From NCBI RefSeq assembly GCF_014844035.1, contig NZ_CP062159.1:3410001-3474000 (forward strand): 64,000 nucleotides of DNA, in the 5' to 3' direction. This document shows positions 4,706 to 34,157 of this stretch, in pieces. Below the pieces are notes generated by a model. It ran no database searches. It saw only the letters and a program-made list of their open reading frames with translations, and had not been told where the DNA came from. Both the position numbers and the translations under genes were made by a program. The stretch is from Flavobacterium sp. MDT1-60. GTDB taxonomy: Bacteria > Bacteroidota > Bacteroidia > Flavobacteriales > Flavobacteriaceae. Numbering within the stretch: the stretch's first letter is position 1; each line of letters begins with the position of its first letter.

Positions 4706-4860
4706 AATAATTAAAAGTTTATTTTCCTACTCGTGTGGCTTTTCGGTTTCGCCCCGTTTTTCAAAATGGTTTCTGGGTTCCATTTAATTTTAAGCAGTAT
4801 AAAATTACGAAATAAACAACACTAAATCACTTAAAAACAGTATTTTAAATATTCAAAATA

Positions 4861-12555: not shown

Positions 12556-14025
12556 TTATCCAATTTTTTTCATTGCTGTCATAGATTCTCTCAACCATGC
12601 TCCTACTTCTTCGATAGGGTGTTGACGAATTTCTTTGTTAACCGCAATTAAAATAGCATTATCTACTCCGTTTGAAGTTGAAAATGGTTTTCCGATTACA
12701 TTTGTTTCAACAGTTTTCATGTATTCAGTTAATAACGGCTTACAAGCGTGATCGAATAAATAACATCCGTATTCAGCTGTATCCGAAATAACGCGGTTCA
12801 TTTCAAACAATTTCTTTCTTGCAATTGTATTTGCAATCAATGGCAATTCGTGTAATGACTCATAATAAGCTGATTCTTCAATGATTCCGGCTTCTGTCAT
12901 AGTTTCAAAAGCTAATTCAACTCCAGCTTTTACCATTGCAATCATTAAAACTCCATTGTCAAAATATTCTTGTTCAGCTATTGGAGCATCAGTTGGAGGA
13001 GTTTTTTCGAAATTAGTTTCTCCTGTTGCAGCTCTCCATGTCAATAAATTTTTATCGTCATTAGCCCAGTCGATCATCATAGTTCTTGAGAATTCTCCAG
13101 AAATAATATCATCTTGATGTTTTTGAAATAACGGACGCATGATATCTTTTAATTCTTCAGCAATTTCGTAAGCTTCGATTTTTGCAGGGTTAGAAAGACG
13201 GTCCATCATATTTGTGATACCACCATGTTTCAAAGCTTCAGTGATAGTTTCCCATCCGTACTGAATTAATTTTGAAGCATACGCTGGTTCGATTCCTTTT
13301 TCAACCATTTTATCAAAACATAAAATAGATCCCGTTTGCAACAATCCACAAAGAATAGTTTGCTCACCCATTAAATCTGATTTTACTTCAGCTACAAATG
13401 ATGATTTCAAAACTCCTGCTTTATGACCTCCGGTTGCTACAGCGTAAGCTTTTGCCTGATCTAAACCAAAACCGTTTGGATCATTTTCAGGGTGAACTGC
13501 AATTAAAGTTGGTACACCAAATCCTCTTTTGTATTCTTCACGAACCTCAGATCCAGGACATTTAGGAGCACACATAATTACTGTGATATCTTTACGAATT
13601 TGCATTCCCTCTTCAACAATATTAAATCCGTGGGAGTATGCCAAAGTCGAGCCTTGTTTCATTAATGGCATAATAGCCGTAACTACAGCTGTATGTTGTT
13701 TATCCGGAGTTAAATTACAAACTAAGTCTGCAGTTGGAATTAATTCTTCATATGTACCTACAGTAAAACCATTTTCAGTAGCATTTTTATAAGAAGCTCT
13801 TTTTTCAGCGATTGCATCTGCACGTAATGCATATGAAATGTTTAAACCTGAATCTCTCATGTTTAAACCTTGATTCAATCCTTGTGCACCACAACCTACA
13901 ATAACAACTTTTTTCCCTGCCAATGCTGCGATTCCGTCTGCAAATTCAGATTGCTCCATAAATTCACAAACTCCTAATTGTTCTAATTGTAATCTAAGTG
14001 GTAATGTGTTGAAATAATTTGCCAT
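12556..14025 (-). CDS. ilvC: Ketol-acid reductoisomerase, class II (long form)
   Basis: Converts acetolactate or acetohydroxybutyrate to the dihydroxy acids with NADPH and Mg2+, second common step of Val/Ile synthesis. At 489 residues it is the long class II form (E. coli and plant type) rather than the ~330-residue class I. Rossmann motif [21 protein letters not shown] is at about residues 35-55; the all-helical C-terminal half carries the acidic metal ligands ([11 protein letters not shown]). Last gene of the ilvD-B-N-C operon, 42 bases after ilvN. Confidence 0.97.
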
Positions 14026-14067
14026 TTTTTTTTAAAATATTTAATGATATGTAATTTATAATTGATA

Positions 14068-14589
14068 CTAATTAAGAGCTTCTAACAATGATGAAATTTC
14101 CATCTTTTCTTTAGAAACAGATATTCTGCCTGAACGCACAAATTGCATAATACCGTAAGGTTTAAATTTGGCATATAATTCTTCAATTTCTGAACGTCTT
14201 CCCGATTTTGAAATCACAAAGAAATCACGAGAAACGGTCACAATTGTAGATTGGCTTTCTTTAATGATATTCTGAATTTGTTTTTCATCAAACAACAAAC
14301 TTGACTGTATTTTGAATAGAGCATTTTCCAAATAAATAGTTTCTTCATCTGTATGATAAAATGCTTTTATTACTTCAATTTGTTTTTCTATTTGTCCAAC
14401 GATATTCTGAACCCATTTTTCAGTTGTATCCACTACTATAATAAAACGAGACACATTCTCTATCTCTGATTCTGAAACGTTTAAACTTAATATATTAATG
14501 TGACGCTTTAAGAATATTCCTGATATTCTATTCAATAAGCCCACGTTATTTTCTGAGTATACCGATATGGTAAATGTTTTATCTTCCAT
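14068..14589 (-). CDS. ilvN: Acetolactate synthase small (regulatory) subunit
   Basis: 173-residue regulatory subunit with the N-terminal ACT domain TISVYSENNVGLLNRISGIFLKR (residues 7-29), which binds valine for feedback control in the family, and a second ACT-like C-terminal domain. It partners with IlvB encoded just upstream. The gap to ilvB contains a 23-bp intercistronic hairpin that might set the subunit ratio. Confidence 0.95.
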   Translation of the reverse strand: MEDKTFTISVYSENNVGLLNRISGIFLKRHINILSLNVSESEIENVSRFIIVVDTTEKWVQNIVGQIEKQIEVIKAFYHTDEETIYLENALFKIQSSLLFDEKQIQNIIKESQSTIVTVSRDFFVISKSGRRSEIEELYAKFKPYGIMQFVRSGRISVSKEKMEISSLLEALN

Positions 14590-14609
14590 TTGTTTTTTTA
14601 GTTTATTTT

Positions 14610-14663
14610 GTTTCAGGTTTCATGTTTCAAGTTTTGCTTAACTTGGAACATGAAACCTGAAAC
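14610..14663 (-). repeat. Intercistronic hairpin between ilvB and ilvN (GTTTCAGGTTTCA words)
   Basis: The arms at 14610-14632 and 14641-14663 pair with a single mismatch over 23 bases, loop of 8. They are made of the repeated word TTTCAGG/TTTCATG/TTTCAAG; a further word copy continues to 14670. There is no T-tract on the coding (minus) strand, so it is not a standard terminator. The same words recur at 38621-38732. Confidence 0.85.
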
Positions 14664-14675
14664 CTGAAACTTTTT

Positions 14676-16364
14676 TTAGCTTAATCTGATTTCAGAAACA
14701 CAAGCTCCTGTTGGAATCATTGGAAAAACATTGTTTTCCTTTTCTACCATAACCTCTAAGAAATAAGAATCTTTTGAAGCCATCATTTCGGCTACAGCAG
14801 CATCTAAATCTTCTCTTTGTGTTACTTTTTTAGACTTGATATGATATCCTTCAGCGATTGCAACAAAATTCGGATTGATCATTTTTGTTGAAGCATATCT
14901 GTTATCAAAGAACAATTCCTGCCATTGACGTACCATACCTAAAAACTCATTATTTAAAATGACAATTTTTACCGGCACTTGTGTCTGGAAAATAGTTCCT
15001 AATTCCTGAATGGTCATCTGGAATCCACCATCACCAATAATAGCTACCACTTCACGATCTGGCCTTCCCATCTTAGCTCCAATAGCAGCTGGTAAAGCAA
15101 ATCCCATGGTTCCTAAACCACCAGAAGTAATATTACTTTTAGTCGAATTAAATTTTGCATAACGGCAAGCAAACATTTGGTGTTGGCCAACATCTGAAAC
15201 GATAATCGCATCACCTTTTGAGTGTTTATTGATCATTTCCATGGTTTCCCCCATCGAAATACCTTTACCATTGGTTGGATTTAATTCTTCATTTATAACA
15301 GATTCCACTTCTATTTTATACAATTCTTTGAATTCATTATGCCATGAATCGTGTGATCTTTTTTCAATTAAAGGCAATATTGCATTTAAAGCTTCTTTAA
15401 CATCACCTAAAACTGCTACTTCAGTTTTTACGTTTTTATCAATTTCAGCAGGATCAATTTCAAAGTGAATTACTTTTGCCTGTTTTGCGTAAGTCGCTAA
15501 CTTTCCAGTAACCCGGTCATCAAAACGCATTCCCAATGCAATTAAAACATCACATTCGTTTGTTAACATATTAGGACCATAATTTCCATGCATTCCTAAC
15601 ATCCCAACGTTTAAAGGATGATCTGTTGGTAAAGCTGAAAGTCCTAAAATAGTCCAACCTGCTGGTACGCCTGATTTTTCAATAAAAGCTTTTAGTTGTT
15701 CTTCGGCCTGACCGAGAATAATTCCCTGACCAAAAACAATAAATGGTTTTTTAGCATTGTTGATCAAAGCAGCAGCTTCTGCTACTTTATCTAATTTTAA
15801 TTTAGGAACAGGATTGTAACTTCTGATTCCTGTACATTTTTCATAACTAAATTCGAACTCATCAAACTGAGCGTTTTTAGTAATATCAATCAAAACAGGG
15901 CCTGGACGACCAGAACGTGCGATATAAAACGCTTTTGCAATGATTTCAGGAATTTCTGAAGCTTCAGTAATCTGATAATTCCATTTGGTAACCGGAGTTG
16001 AAATTCCGATAATATCAGTTTCCTGAAAAGCATCAGAACCTAATAAATGTTTTCCAACCTGACCTGTAATACAAACCATTGGCGTTGAATCGATTTGAGC
16101 ATCTGCAATTCCTGTAACTAAATTTGTTGCTCCCGGTCCAGAAGTAGCAATTGCCACCCCTACTTTTCCAGTAGCTCTGGCATATCCCTGAGCTGCATGA
16201 GTTGCACCTTGTTCGTGACGTACTAAAACATGGTGTAATTGGTCCTGAAATTTATATAATTCGTCATAAACCGGCATGATTGCTCCTCCCGGATATCCAT
16301 AAACCAAGTCTACTCCTTCTGCTAATAAACATCTTATAACGGCTTCTGCCCCTGATATTTTCAT
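14676..16364 (-). CDS. ilvB: Acetolactate synthase large (catalytic) subunit
   Basis: Thiamine-diphosphate enzyme joining two pyruvates (or pyruvate and 2-oxobutyrate), first common step of branched-chain synthesis. Of 562 residues, the N-terminal Pyr domain has GYPGGAIMPVYDEL and RHEQGATHAAQGYARA with the catalytic Glu; the C-terminal PP domain has the GDGGFQMTIQELGT...NNEFLGMVRQW ThDP-binding motif. ATG at 16364 (MKISGAEAVIRCLL) is preferred over 16394, which would add ten residues of upstream AT-rich sequence. Confidence 0.97.
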   Translation of the reverse strand: MKISGAEAVIRCLLAEGVDLVYGYPGGAIMPVYDELYKFQDQLHHVLVRHEQGATHAAQGYARATGKVGVAIATSGPGATNLVTGIADAQIDSTPMVCITGQVGKHLLGSDAFQETDIIGISTPVTKWNYQITEASEIPEIIAKAFYIARSGRPGPVLIDITKNAQFDEFEFSYEKCTGIRSYNPVPKLKLDKVAEAAALINNAKKPFIVFGQGIILGQAEEQLKAFIEKSGVPAGWTILGLSALPTDHPLNVGMLGMHGNYGPNMLTNECDVLIALGMRFDDRVTGKLATYAKQAKVIHFEIDPAEIDKNVKTEVAVLGDVKEALNAILPLIEKRSHDSWHNEFKELYKIEVESVINEELNPTNGKGISMGETMEMINKHSKGDAIIVSDVGQHQMFACRYAKFNSTKSNITSGGLGTMGFALPAAIGAKMGRPDREVVAIIGDGGFQMTIQELGTIFQTQVPVKIVILNNEFLGMVRQWQELFFDNRYASTKMINPNFVAIAEGYHIKSKKVTQREDLDAAVAEMMASKDSYFLEVMVEKENNVFPMIPTGACVSEIRLS

Positions 16365-16379
16365 AGTATATTTTTTCTC

Positions 16380-16512
16380 AAAAATCAATATCAAAAATCA
16401 ATTTCAAAATTCAATCGCAATGTCAAGAATCAATCTTAATTGATCTATTTATTATTGCTATCGATTTTTCTTATTGTCATTGATATTGTAATTGACATTG
16501 TTATTTAATAAA
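16380..16512 (-). repeat. Intercistronic short-word repeat between ilvD and ilvB
   Basis: Built from degenerate copies of words such as AAAATCAATATC, CAATGTCAAGAATC and, inverted, ATTGTCATTGATATTG. The left half (16384-16435) and right half (16460-16502) can pair as a long imperfect hairpin. Non-coding. Confidence 0.65.
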
Positions 16513-18186
16513 TTAATTATCGGTAACGCAACCTGTAGAAGCGCTTGAAACCGATCTTGCATATTTAAGCAAAACTCCTTTTGAAACTTTTAACGGTGGT
16601 TGAACCCAAGCCGCTTTTCTGGCTGCAAATTCTTCGTCAGATATTTTCAGGTTGATTGTATTTTTCACAGCGTCGATAGCAATTAAATCACCATCATTTA
16701 CAAGTGCAATACCACCACCATCATAAGCCTCTGGTGTAATGTGACCTACCACAAATCCATGTGAACCTCCAGAGAACCTTCCGTCTGTAATAAGAGCAAC
16801 GCTGCTTCCTAGTCCAGCTCCAATAATGGCCGATGTAGGTTTTAGCATCTCAGGCATCCCCGGACCACCTTTTGGTCCACAGTTCCTGATGACGACTACA
16901 TCACCTGGTTTTACTTTTCCGGCCTGAATACCAGGAATAACATCAAATTCACCTTCAAAAATTACAGCAGGTCCTTCAAAAAACTCACCTTCTTTTCCAC
17001 TTATTTTTGCAACACATCCTTCAGAAGCAAGGTTACCATATAAGATTTGAATATTTCCTGTTGTCTTTAATGCTTTTTGGATTTCATGTATTACCTCTTG
17101 TCCATCTTGTAAATCCGGTACTGAAGCTAAATTTTCAGCAACTGTTTTTCCTGTTACTGTTAAACAATCACCATGAATAAGTCCTTCTTTCAATAAATAT
17201 TTCAATACAGCAGGAACTCCTCCAACAGCATGCAGATCTTCCATCATGTATTTACCACTTGGTTTTAAGTCAGCAAGTACAGGAGTTTTATCACTAATTC
17301 TTTGAAAATCATCGATTGTAATTTCAATATCAACTGAATGAGCCATAGCGATTAAGTGCATAACTGCATTTGTAGAACCTCCTAAAACTGCTACAAGGGT
17401 GATAGCATTTTCAAATGCCTTGCGAGTCATAATGTCTCTTGGCTTGATATCTTTTTCCAATAAATTTCTGATTGCTTTTCCGGCGTCCAGACATTCTTGT
17501 TTTTTTTCTTCACTCAAAGCAGGATTTGAAGAGCTGTATGGTAAACTCATTCCTAATGCTTCAATTGCAGAAGACATTGTATTTGCAGTGTACATTCCGC
17601 CACAAGCACCAGCTCCCGGACATGCATTTTGAATAACACCTTTATAATCTTCAGGAGAAATTGTATTGTTGAATTTTTTTCCTAATGCTTCAAAAGCAGA
17701 AACAATATTTAAAGATTCACCTTTCCATTTTCCAGAATGTATCGTTCCTCCATAAACCATAATAGCCGGACGATTTACTCTTCCCATTGCTATTAAAGCT
17801 CCTGGCATATTTTTATCACAACCCGGAATAGCAATTAAACTGTCGTAAAATTGTGCTCCCATAACAGTCTCAATAGAATCTGCAATTACATCACGTGAAA
17901 CTAGTGAAAAACGCATTCCTTCAGTACCGTTTGAAATACCGTCACTAACACCAATGGTATTAAAAATAAGTCCGACTAAATCTGAATCCCAAACACCTTT
18001 TTTAACATCTTTAGCTAAATCATTCAGGTGCATGTTGCAGGTGTTACCATCGTAACCCATGCTCACAATACCTACTTGTGCTTTTTTCAAATCTTCTTCA
18101 GTTAAACCAATACCATACAACATGGCTTGCGCCGCAGGTTGTGTTTGATCTTGAGTGATGGTTTTGCTGTACTTATTTAATTCCAT
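16513..18186 (-). CDS. ilvD: Dihydroxy-acid dehydratase
   Basis: Fe-S enzyme that dehydrates dihydroxyisovalerate and dihydroxymethylvalerate to the 2-oxo acids. 557 residues with the family cysteines at C50 (DGNTCNMH), C123 ([10 protein letters not shown]) and C189/C195 ([20 protein letters not shown]), and the C-terminal [11 protein letters not shown] signature. First structural gene of the ilv operon; its 5' region encodes a leader peptide and attenuator, so it is probably controlled by Ile/Val supply. Confidence 0.97.
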
Positions 18187-18216: not shown

Positions 18217-18247
18217 AAAAAAAAACCTTCCAGTATTTGGAAGGTTT
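18217..18247 (-). terminator. ilv attenuator (intrinsic terminator in the leader)
   Basis: AAACCTTCC at 18223-18231 pairs with GGAAGGTTT at 18239-18247 (9 bp, extendable to 10) and on the minus strand is followed directly by nine T. It sits between the leader peptide stop and ilvD, where a terminator only makes sense as an attenuator. Confidence 0.9.
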
Positions 18248-18270
18248 ATAATATAGTTTTTCAATTATAT

Positions 18271-18345
18271 TTATACCATTCCCGATGCAGATGTGAAAAT
18301 CACATTGACAACAACGACAGAAGTAATAATAATTGAGATTTGCAT
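18271..18345 (-). CDS. ilv operon leader peptide (Ile/Val-rich)
   Basis: A 24-codon ORF with ATG at 18343-18345 and TAA at 18271-18273. It begins MQISIIITSVVVVNVIF and continues for seven further residues. It has three consecutive Ile codons, four consecutive Val codons, and 5 Ile plus 6 Val in total, but no Leu. It lies just downstream of a good promoter and upstream of an intrinsic terminator and ilvD. This is the arrangement of ribosome-mediated attenuation as known for ilv operons of enterobacteria: stalling at scarce Ile-tRNA or Val-tRNA would prevent terminator formation. The function is inferred, but the codon content is very unlikely by chance. Confidence 0.9.
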   Translation of the reverse strand: MQISIIITSVVVVNVIFTSASGMV

Positions 18346-18367
18346 CTTTTTATTTTTTTTAGTGTGA

Positions 18368-18400
18368 CAAAAGTATAAAAACTTAAGTGACTAAAAAAAT
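18368..18400 (-). promoter_or_regulatory. Promoter of the ilv operon
   Basis: On the minus strand a -7 box TACTTTTG (18368-18375) matches TAnnTTTG, and a TTG (18398-18400) lies 22 bases upstream, as in Flavobacterium vegetative promoters. The transcript would start about 16 bases before the leader peptide ATG. Confidence 0.75.
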
Positions 18401-18457
18401 AAAATCTCAACATTTTAAATACTTCTTGTTATTTCTTTTAAGTTTTAACAAAAAATA

Positions 18458-19576
18458 TTAAACAATTGTCGATTGTCCGATATGAACGTTGTCATTATTA
18501 AAATATAATAAGTCGTCTTTGCTGAAAATAAAATTAGAAACAAACTCCCCTACTTCATTTGTACCGAATTTTGAATCTGGTTTTAAATCAACAGTAACTA
18601 CTTTAAATTCAATTGCTTTTTCAATTGCCTGATAAATTATATTGGCTTCTTTAAACAAACCAAAATGCTCTAACAGCATTGCGGCTGATAAAATAGAAGC
18701 AATTGGGTTGGCAATATTTTTTCCTTTTGCTTGTGGATAAGAACCGTGAATTGGCTCAAACAAAGCATTTTTTTCTCCTAAAGATGCCGAAGCCAGTAAA
18801 CCGATTGAACCTGTGATAACGCTTGCTTCATCTGATAAAATATCTCCGAATAAATTCTCTGTCAAAATCACATCAAATTGTTTTGGATTTAAGATAATTT
18901 GCATTGCTGCATTATCAACAAACAAAAAGTCTAAAGCTACATCTGGATAGTTTTCGCCTACTTTCTGAACTACTTTTCTCCATAATCTTGAGGTTTCTAA
19001 AACATTTGCTTTATCTACCATTGTTAACTTCTTACGACGGTTTTGTGCCGATTTAAAAGCTAAATGTGCAATTCTGGTAATTTCTTCTTCTGAATATTCA
19101 CATAAATCAGAAGCATGTGTTCCTTCTTCATTTAGTGTTTTGGCTCCAAAATAAGCACCGCCTGTTAATTCTCTGAAAATAGTAAAATCAGCTCCTTCAA
19201 TAATTTCTCTTTTTAAAGGAGAAGCATCAATTAGTGATTTATACGGTTTTATTGGACGAATATTTGCAAATAAGCCTAGTTCCTTACGTAATTTCAATAA
19301 TCCTTGCTCCGGACGAACTTTTGCATTTGGATTATTGTCATATTTAGGATCTCCTATCGCTCCAAATAAAACAGCGTCAGTATTTAAACAAAGATTTAAA
19401 GTTTGTTCCGGAAGCGGATTACCTGTTTTGTCAATAGCAATCGCACCCATGAGTGCTTCTTCAAATACAAATTCATGATTGTAAACCTCACCAATTGCGT
19501 ACAACGCTTTTTTGGCTTGTAAAATTACTTCTGGTCCAATTCCGTCTCCTGGTAAAACTGCTATTTTCAAATTCAT
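18458..19576 (-). CDS. leuB: 3-isopropylmalate dehydrogenase
   Basis: NAD- and Mg2+-dependent oxidative decarboxylase of leucine synthesis. 372 residues beginning KIAVLPGDGIGPEV, with the substrate Arg region KVRPEQGLLKLRKELGLFANIRP, and the metal/NAD segment DVILTENLFGDILSDEAS...GSIGLLASAS plus FEPIHGSYPQAKGK near the C-terminus. Second gene of leuA-leuB. The isopropylmalate isomerase genes leuC and leuD are not in this window. Confidence 0.97.
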   Translation of the reverse strand: MNLKIAVLPGDGIGPEVILQAKKALYAIGEVYNHEFVFEEALMGAIAIDKTGNPLPEQTLNLCLNTDAVLFGAIGDPKYDNNPNAKVRPEQGLLKLRKELGLFANIRPIKPYKSLIDASPLKREIIEGADFTIFRELTGGAYFGAKTLNEEGTHASDLCEYSEEEITRIAHLAFKSAQNRRKKLTMVDKANVLETSRLWRKVVQKVGENYPDVALDFLFVDNAAMQIILNPKQFDVILTENLFGDILSDEASVITGSIGLLASASLGEKNALFEPIHGSYPQAKGKNIANPIASILSAAMLLEHFGLFKEANIIYQAIEKAIEFKVVTVDLKPDSKFGTNEVGEFVSNFIFSKDDLLYFNNDNVHIGQSTIV

Positions 19577-34002: not shown

Positions 34003-34035
34003 AAAAAACCCGCTTGATGTACTCAAACGGGTTTT
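34003..34035 (-). terminator. his attenuator (intrinsic terminator in the leader)
   Basis: AAAACCCG (34005-34012) pairs with CGGGTTTT (34028-34035), and four more pairs follow after one mismatch. On the minus strand the stem is followed by a run of six T (34003-34008). It lies between the leader peptide and hisG, so it should act as an attenuator. Confidence 0.88.
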
Positions 34036-34062
34036 AAAATATGATGATTTACATGCATACCA

Positions 34063-34122
34063 TTAACACATCGCCTGAGAGCAATAATGAAAATGATGGT
34101 GATGTAATTGATTTGAAATCAT
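34063..34122 (-). CDS. hisL: his operon leader peptide
   Basis: 19-codon ORF MISNQLHHHHFHYCSQAMC, ATG at 34120-34122, TAA at 34063-34065. Four consecutive His codons plus one after a Phe, placed between a promoter and an intrinsic terminator upstream of hisG. This is the hisL arrangement of enterobacteria, in which ribosome stalling at His codons during His-tRNA shortage prevents termination. There is no Shine-Dalgarno sequence, as usual in this phylum; the start lies in A-rich sequence. The mechanism is inferred from this layout. Confidence 0.93.
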   Translation of the reverse strand: MISNQLHHHHFHYCSQAMC

Positions 34123-34157
34123 TGTTTGGTTTGTTTTATAATTCTTTGATTCGGTTG

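Follow-up and report, generated by a model that had tools for sequence, protein, structure and literature searches.

A putative ribosome-mediated attenuator with an Ile/Val leader peptide upstream of ilvDBNC in Flavobacterium

Introduction

Enterobacterial ilv operons (ilvGMEDA, ilvBN) are controlled by attenuators in which leader peptides rich in Ile and Val codons are combined with alternative RNA pairings. Bacteroidota ribosomes initiate largely without Shine-Dalgarno pairing, and Vitreschak et al. reportedly predicted some attenuators in Bacteroidetes/Chlorobi in 2004. The closest described family in the phylum is Bacteroid-trp (RF01692), which Table 1 of PMC2864571 gives as a Bacteroidete tryptophan peptide leader RNA. 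A 2021 transcriptome study of Flavobacterium psychrophilum (PMC9723704) reports clues for leader-peptide attenuation upstream of amino-acid operons, and places the elements before pheA and hisG in other genera as well. Attenuation in Bacteroidota, which an initial annotation of the DNA studied here had called less documented, is somewhat better documented than supposed, as RF01692 and PMC9723704 indicate. Among the titles listed by a literature search, none concerned an ilv attenuator from this phylum. This kind of attenuator is classical, but few accounts describe how widely it occurs in Bacteroidota.

Here, we analyse the leader upstream of ilvD in Flavobacterium sp. MDT1-60, within a window of 64,000 nucleotides (the whole stretch of DNA analysed) of its chromosome, a single contig of 5.56 Mb. 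Named relatives whose ilvD is 83-93% identical are nearly all Flavobacterium.

Results

The locus comprises the following features, by window position.

18458-19576: leuB, upstream neighbour of the ilvD leader
18375-18368, minus strand: -7 promoter element TACTTTTG, exact match to TAnnTTTG
18345-18271, minus strand: leader peptide ORF MQISIIITSVVVVNVIFTSASGMV, 24 codons from ATG to TAA (stop at 18273-18271)
18335-18318, minus strand: strand 1, on the Ile-run codons, partner of strand 2 by minimum-free-energy fold, swap test and geometry; core TATTACTTC at 18328-18320, outer part CAATTAT at 18335-18329
18305-18291, minus strand: internal hairpin ATGTGA-TTT-TCACAT, within the ORF and the 1:2 loop, identified by covariation
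18283-18262, minus strand: strand 2, GGGAATGGTATAAATATAATTG, overlapping the ORF's 3' end, stop codon included; partner of strand 1 or strand 3
18255-18239, minus strand: strand 3, TATATTATAAACCTTCC, which pairs with strand 2 in the antiterminator and supplies the terminator's 5' arm
18247-18217, minus strand: intrinsic terminator, with a stem of 10 pairs at 18247-18223 whose 3' arm is strand 4
18225-18217, minus strand: terminator T run, nine T, the first three shared with the stem
16513-18186, minus strand: ilvD, start at 18186 (TIGR00110, PF00920/PF24877), presumably the first regulated gene
12556-16394, minus strand: ilvB, ilvN and ilvC (Pfam TPP_enzyme domains, ALS_ss_C, KARI), presumably one operon with ilvD

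Pfam and NCBIfam support ilvD, ilvB, ilvN and ilvC as well as the leuB-like and leuA-like neighbours.

The 24-codon ORF with three-Ile and four-Val runs described in the initial annotation is borne out by its coordinates, and its translation likewise contains the predicted zero Leu codons: the Ile run occupies codons 5-7 and the Val run codons 10-13. Ile and Val make up 11 of the 24 codons; when the ORF is dinucleotide-shuffled, only 6 of 5000 versions reach that count (mean 4.7). The leader is thus rich in codons for the amino acids that its operon produces, as attenuators are. Ile and Val together have a median share of 44% in 126 distinct ilv leaders, against 13.4% (7.1% + 6.3%) in 91 downstream genes, a comparison biased towards enrichment by our choice of the ORF highest in Ile+Val where several ATGs fit (more than one reading frame was possible in 3 of 146 leaders). 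The peptide varies across the family to forms like MKKQILNIISIIVIVIISQG while keeping its Ile/Val-richness. Codon choice is also distinctive. ATA is rare in ilv leaders (40/758 Ile codons, 5.3%, vs 646/2917, 22%, in downstream genes), as if they were read mainly by the tRNA-Ile for AUU/AUC; the rare codon GTC is commoner there (146/427 Val codons, 34%, vs 232/2591, 9%), which may be due in part to the hairpin near those codons.

Between the leader ORF and ilvD lies a predicted intrinsic terminator, as expected of an attenuator; the hairpin with nine T of the initial annotation stands as a 10-pair stem and its T run. A terminator scan of the region returned this one site only (0.0 such sites per shuffle), and the leader folds more stably than shuffled copies do (z = -4.19). 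Terminator and internal hairpin both covary, with 23 double-change cells against 6.4 in shuffles (0/500), and they are the only structures that RNAalifold predicts on alignment A1, which holds 40 of the 46 genus leaders (five exact duplicates and L031 left out). Two further alignments were hand-picked: A2, with 24/46 leaders after removal of misaligned rows, and A3, with 50. The internal repeat ATGTGA..TCACAT, proposed earlier as a competing structure, does pair, and is conserved and covarying; it sits in the 1:2 loop and does not compete with the terminator. We suggest that it could possibly act as an RNA polymerase pause hairpin. The other proposed competitor, GATGCA..TGCATC, pairs fully in only 23/46 genus leaders and is unsupported as a general element.

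Comparison of leaders reveals the three alternative pairings of a classical attenuator — strand 1 with 2, strand 2 with 3 (the terminator 5' arm), and strand 3 with 4 — of which the antiterminator (2:3) and the protector pairing (1:2) were absent from the initial annotation. The 3' end of the MDT1-60 ORF (GGGAAUGGU) is complementary to the terminator-arm sequence ACCUUCC, and the same complementarity recurs in most leaders, with compensating variants such as GGAUGGU/AGCCAUCC (L165), GGAAGGCU/AGCCUUCC (L102) and, before pheA, GGGACU/AGUCCC (L137). When strands are swapped between 31 representative leaders, the 2:3 duplex weakens from -7.73 to -6.87 kcal/mol and 0/5000 swaps are as good, energies that are conditional on the exclusion of leaders with 2:3 weaker than -4.5 kcal/mol. 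With no energy cut, 0/2000 swaps are as good over 136 distinct leaders, and after clustering, which reduces the effect of relatedness and does not abolish it, 0/5000 (76 representatives), 1/5000 (36) and 35/5000 (13). Within the genus, 2:3 shows no covariation in fixed alignment columns, since strand 2 is almost constant there and its register of pairing moves. The case for an antiterminator that excludes the terminator is made by the swap tests, since the fixed-column test alone is negative.

In partition functions, strand 2 has a competing partner that clusters at the Ile codons, 30-50 nt further upstream; this strand 1 peak rules out a design in which strand 2 has no upstream competitor. 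The 1:2 duplex weakens from -8.11 to -5.83 kcal/mol on swapping (31 representatives), with 0/5000 swaps as good at both 62 and 31 representatives and 7/5000 at 15. A control stretch adjoining strand 2 had no effect (4819, 3653 and 4060 of 5000 for 62, 31 and 15 representatives). Coevolving examples include UAAUAGUUUCU/GGAAGCUAUUA (L053) and UAUCAAUCU/GGAUUGGUA (L046). A protector pairing with the regulatory codons is therefore found for the family; it is weak in the MDT1-60 leader itself, whose 1:2 core reaches -3.6 kcal/mol.

We modelled ribosome positions with a footprint assumed to reach from 18 nt upstream to 14 nt downstream of the first base of the A-site codon. With this assumed footprint, and with leaders whose 1:2 is weaker than -3.0 also dropped, a ribosome that has reached the stop codon masks strand 2 and frees strand 1 in 128/128 leaders, the arrangement expected of an attenuator. 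Stalls that mask strand 1 and spare strand 2 fall on 935/1214 Ile/Val codons (77%), against 1573/2780 of all codons (57%); in MDT1-60 such masking is permitted at codons 3-15, where 9 of the leader's 11 Ile/Val codons lie. As long as arm 4 has yet to be transcribed, the mean antiterminator probability over the 128 leaders is 0.52 in the absence of a ribosome, rises to 0.91 under a stall and falls to 0.02 once a ribosome occupies the stop. Some results from MDT1-60 count against the attenuator reading: besides the weak 1:2 core, its antiterminator is already at P = 0.92 with no ribosome and arm 4 still missing, and its terminator stands at P = 1.0 at equilibrium in each of the three ribosome states. 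Over all leaders the equilibrium terminator probability averages 0.95 with no ribosome, 0.74 with a stall and 0.97 at the stop. Because the MDT1-60 terminator wins at equilibrium even with a stalled ribosome, switching must be kinetic.

The "full promoter" of the initial annotation holds in part. The -7 element matches TAnnTTTG exactly, and this motif lies at most 70 nt from the leader ATG in 43/46 Flavobacterium leaders versus 13% of shuffled stretches; an exact -33 TTTG is not visible upstream of it. Both motifs follow what we take to be the Bacteroidota promoter consensus. A sigma-70 scan of the region gave 2 sites against 2.3 expected, the sigma-70 consensus being uninformative for Bacteroidota. 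The sequence TGTTGAGATTTTATTTTTTTAGT (18390-18412, minus strand), 5' of the -7 element, is by eye strongly conserved in close relatives, above its flanks, and may be a -33 region or a regulator site. An inverted repeat, TTGAGATTT 5' of the -7 element and AAATCTCAA at codons 2-5, was considered as an RNA stem and rejected, pairing fully in only 22/46 genus leaders.

The initial annotation had tied its reading to conservation in other Flavobacterium genomes. Matches to ilvD occur in 80 of 150 genus genomes (none in 70), and the Ile/Val ORF and terminator are kept, with stem covariation, in 46 of 77 full ilvD upstream regions, searched over the 120 nt before ilvD (one more region was partial and others ran beyond their contig). 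The other 31 regions, which count against the reading, have no such leader or terminator within these 120 nt; in most of them a gene that by eye is leuB, leuA or ilvE extends to ilvD. At family level, model R1 matches 99/397 Flavobacteriaceae genomes in 75/237 genera, Phe and Asn leaders included, and, counting against the reading, has zero matches under strict filters in the other 298 genomes, many of which may lack the pathway. Of its 105 matches, 102 precede ilv, pheA or gatA and 95 precede ilv genes (ilvD 74, ilvE 18, pheA 5, gatA 2, and ilvB, ilvN and ilvA 1 each; two have no gene in the fetched DNA and one gene is unrelated), classes that were assigned from short motifs and gave the same counts by blastp against one reference per class. 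The ilvD, ilvB, ilvN, ilvE, ilvA, pheA and gatA references were checked against Pfam or NCBIfam; pheA, gatA and a truncated trpE fell under their best NCBIfam cut-offs and over those of Pfam. One R1 match looks false (L184, before a pyrH-like gene by eye).

Relatives extend to other families. At E <= 0.05, model R2 matches directly before ilvD in 42 of 79 named loci (80 fetched) and before an ilvE-like gene upstream of ilvD in 9 more, including Myroides, Niastella, Longitalea and Chitinophaga. At E <= 0.01 it matches 52/395 phylum genomes, other Bacteroidota families included; in the loci read, the gene behind an Ile/Val-rich leader is ilvD- or ilvE-like, and that behind a Thr/Ile-rich leader encodes an aspartokinase. 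Tandem Ile/Val leaders stand before ilvE- and ilvD-like genes at G605:C121:29259-29508 and G878:C7:162038-162301 (L209, L212), and also at L214, L220 and L283, the second leader of L214 and L220 being seen by eye only. One Thr/Ile leader, MTINNTTIITIITTG..., precedes aspartokinase in another family (L215, checked; L217, by eye); the enterobacterial thr operon has a comparable Thr/Ile leader.

Leaders for other amino acids were found in MDT1-60 and in the family.

34003-34126, minus strand: His leader before hisG, ORF MISNQLHHHHFHYCSQAMC at 34122-34063 with four consecutive His codons
G000:C1:5038208-5038339, plus strand, own genome: Ile leader MTNLNNIIIAINIIVIEQ before ilvA (L187)
G000:C1:1975851-1975978, minus strand, own genome: Trp leader MKTLMNNTWWWKNLRQTS before trpE (L190), Rfam Bacteroid-trp
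1492-6639 of L326 (G310), minus strand: Asn-leader locus, its leader in L183; others are L179/L325 (G200) and L156 (G318)

Codon type tracks the downstream gene in MDT1-60, with Ile before ilvA, Trp before trpE and His before hisG. In this genome R2 has seven matches at E <= 1: the leaders of the ilv operon, ilvA and trpE, and four others (E 0.2 to 0.97) with the appearance of chance hits. The hisG leader ends in a terminator, ACCCGTTTGA..TCAAGCGGGT plus a T run; a DNA search recovered it in 14/26 genomes including its own, with a His-run ORF in 12/12 of the relatives' loci read (of 13). Near the end of the His ORF, CARGCG is complementary to CGUYUG in the terminator arm in 13/13 loci including MDT1-60, in one by compensating change, the duplexes being weak (-2.7 to -5.8 kcal/mol). 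Model R1 found five Phe/Tyr-rich leaders before prephenate dehydratase (pheA), and two Asn-rich leaders before gatA plus one at a contig end. One Asn-rich leader, MINNNNNNNFNNPNF, has the same strand design, and behind it lie a small ORF, gatA and the gene for a GatB-AspRS fusion of 1111 aa; the genome also encodes a full AsnRS. It is possibly, judging by its sequence, an attenuator of tRNA-dependent asparagine synthesis, and among the titles listed by a literature search none concerned it.

Against 4227 Rfam models, which presumably include the His, Leu, Thr and Trp leaders, no family reached its gathering score in the ilv leader, Bacteroid-trp included; Phe_leader (RF01859) came to 33 of 55 bits. 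Among nine leader loci of several amino-acid types, the Trp leader alone matches an Rfam family (74.5 bits to Bacteroid-trp, gathering 49). In the whole window, the sole family at gathering score was the DUF805 RNA (RF03081), at 4720-4788 on the minus strand with 76.8 bits.

Discussion

We conclude that the ilvDBNC leader is very probably a classical ribosome-mediated attenuator under the control of charged tRNA-Ile and tRNA-Val. The earlier reading to this effect gains support from codons, terminator and mutually exclusive pairings that are conserved with compensatory change across Flavobacteriaceae, and from relatives in other families. Sequence comparison shows the ORF, the terminator, the coevolving 1:2 and 2:3 pairings, the codon specificity and the gene context. 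We propose that RNA polymerase starts near 18362 and that a ribosome would translate the leader close behind it. When Ile- or Val-tRNA is scarce, the ribosome would stall on codons 3-15, covering strand 1 and leaving strand 2 free to bind strand 3, which would block the terminator and allow transcription of ilvDBNC. When Ile and Val are plentiful, a ribosome at the stop codon would instead cover strand 2, and the 3:4 terminator would form. Without translation, the 1:2 pairing may also favour termination in many relatives.

The hairpin sits 3' of leuB and Ile codons are plentiful in AT-rich DNA, so one could picture an ordinary leuAB terminator, an ilvD promoter elsewhere and an ORF that is a chance AT-rich frame. 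We consider this very improbable: few shuffles attain the observed Ile+Val count, the ORF is kept where the next gene is ilvE or where no leuB match is seen nearby, and the strands coevolve. No more credible is an active peptide, for example a small hydrophobic membrane peptide or a trans regulator. The peptide is indeed hydrophobic, and trans roles are reported for the Sinorhizobium leader peptide peTrpL (PMC7298713), but residues other than Ile and Val are highly variable, and Phe-, His-, Trp- and Asn-rich leaders of the same layout precede matching pathway genes. The structured leader and its alternative folds would also suit a riboswitch that binds a metabolite, or a T-box-like RNA, in which the ORF is incidental, an explanation to which we give very little weight: all Rfam families score below gathering, Phe_leader being the best, and the conserved content consists of codons and attenuator strands, with no aptamer-like core evident by eye.

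Taking the attenuator reading forward, we lean towards a single Bacteroidota design in which strand 2 lies on the leader's stop codon and which serves operons for Ile/Val, Ile, Thr, His, Phe and Trp and even tRNA-dependent Asn synthesis. If true, such a shared design would imply tight transcription-translation coupling in a phylum without much Shine-Dalgarno initiation; since classical attenuation needs a ribosome close behind the polymerase, these leaders make coupling under such initiation directly testable. The ilv leader offers a concrete, testable control of branched-chain amino-acid synthesis in a large phylum, and from leader codons one can predict which amino acid other operons sense, the unexpected asparagine case included.

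The MDT1-60 leader shares with Bacteroid-trp its phylum, codons for the amino acid of the pathway and a long hairpin that precedes the terminator arm, and differs in that Bacteroid-trp carries Trp codons and precedes trpE. In the main text of PMC9723704 "ilv" is absent, and its section on 5' cis-regulatory RNAs describes no alternative pairings. The Corynebacterium glutamicum ilvBNC attenuator (PMC11857589) likewise belongs to a branched-chain amino-acid operon outside Proteobacteria, in a different phylum and with a different first gene. Like the enterobacterial ilvGMEDA and ilvBN attenuators, the MDT1-60 leader combines Ile/Val codons with 1:2, 2:3 and 3:4 pairings before an ilv operon; unlike them, it belongs to a host whose ribosomes start mostly without Shine-Dalgarno pairing, and it has zero Leu codons and no Rfam match.
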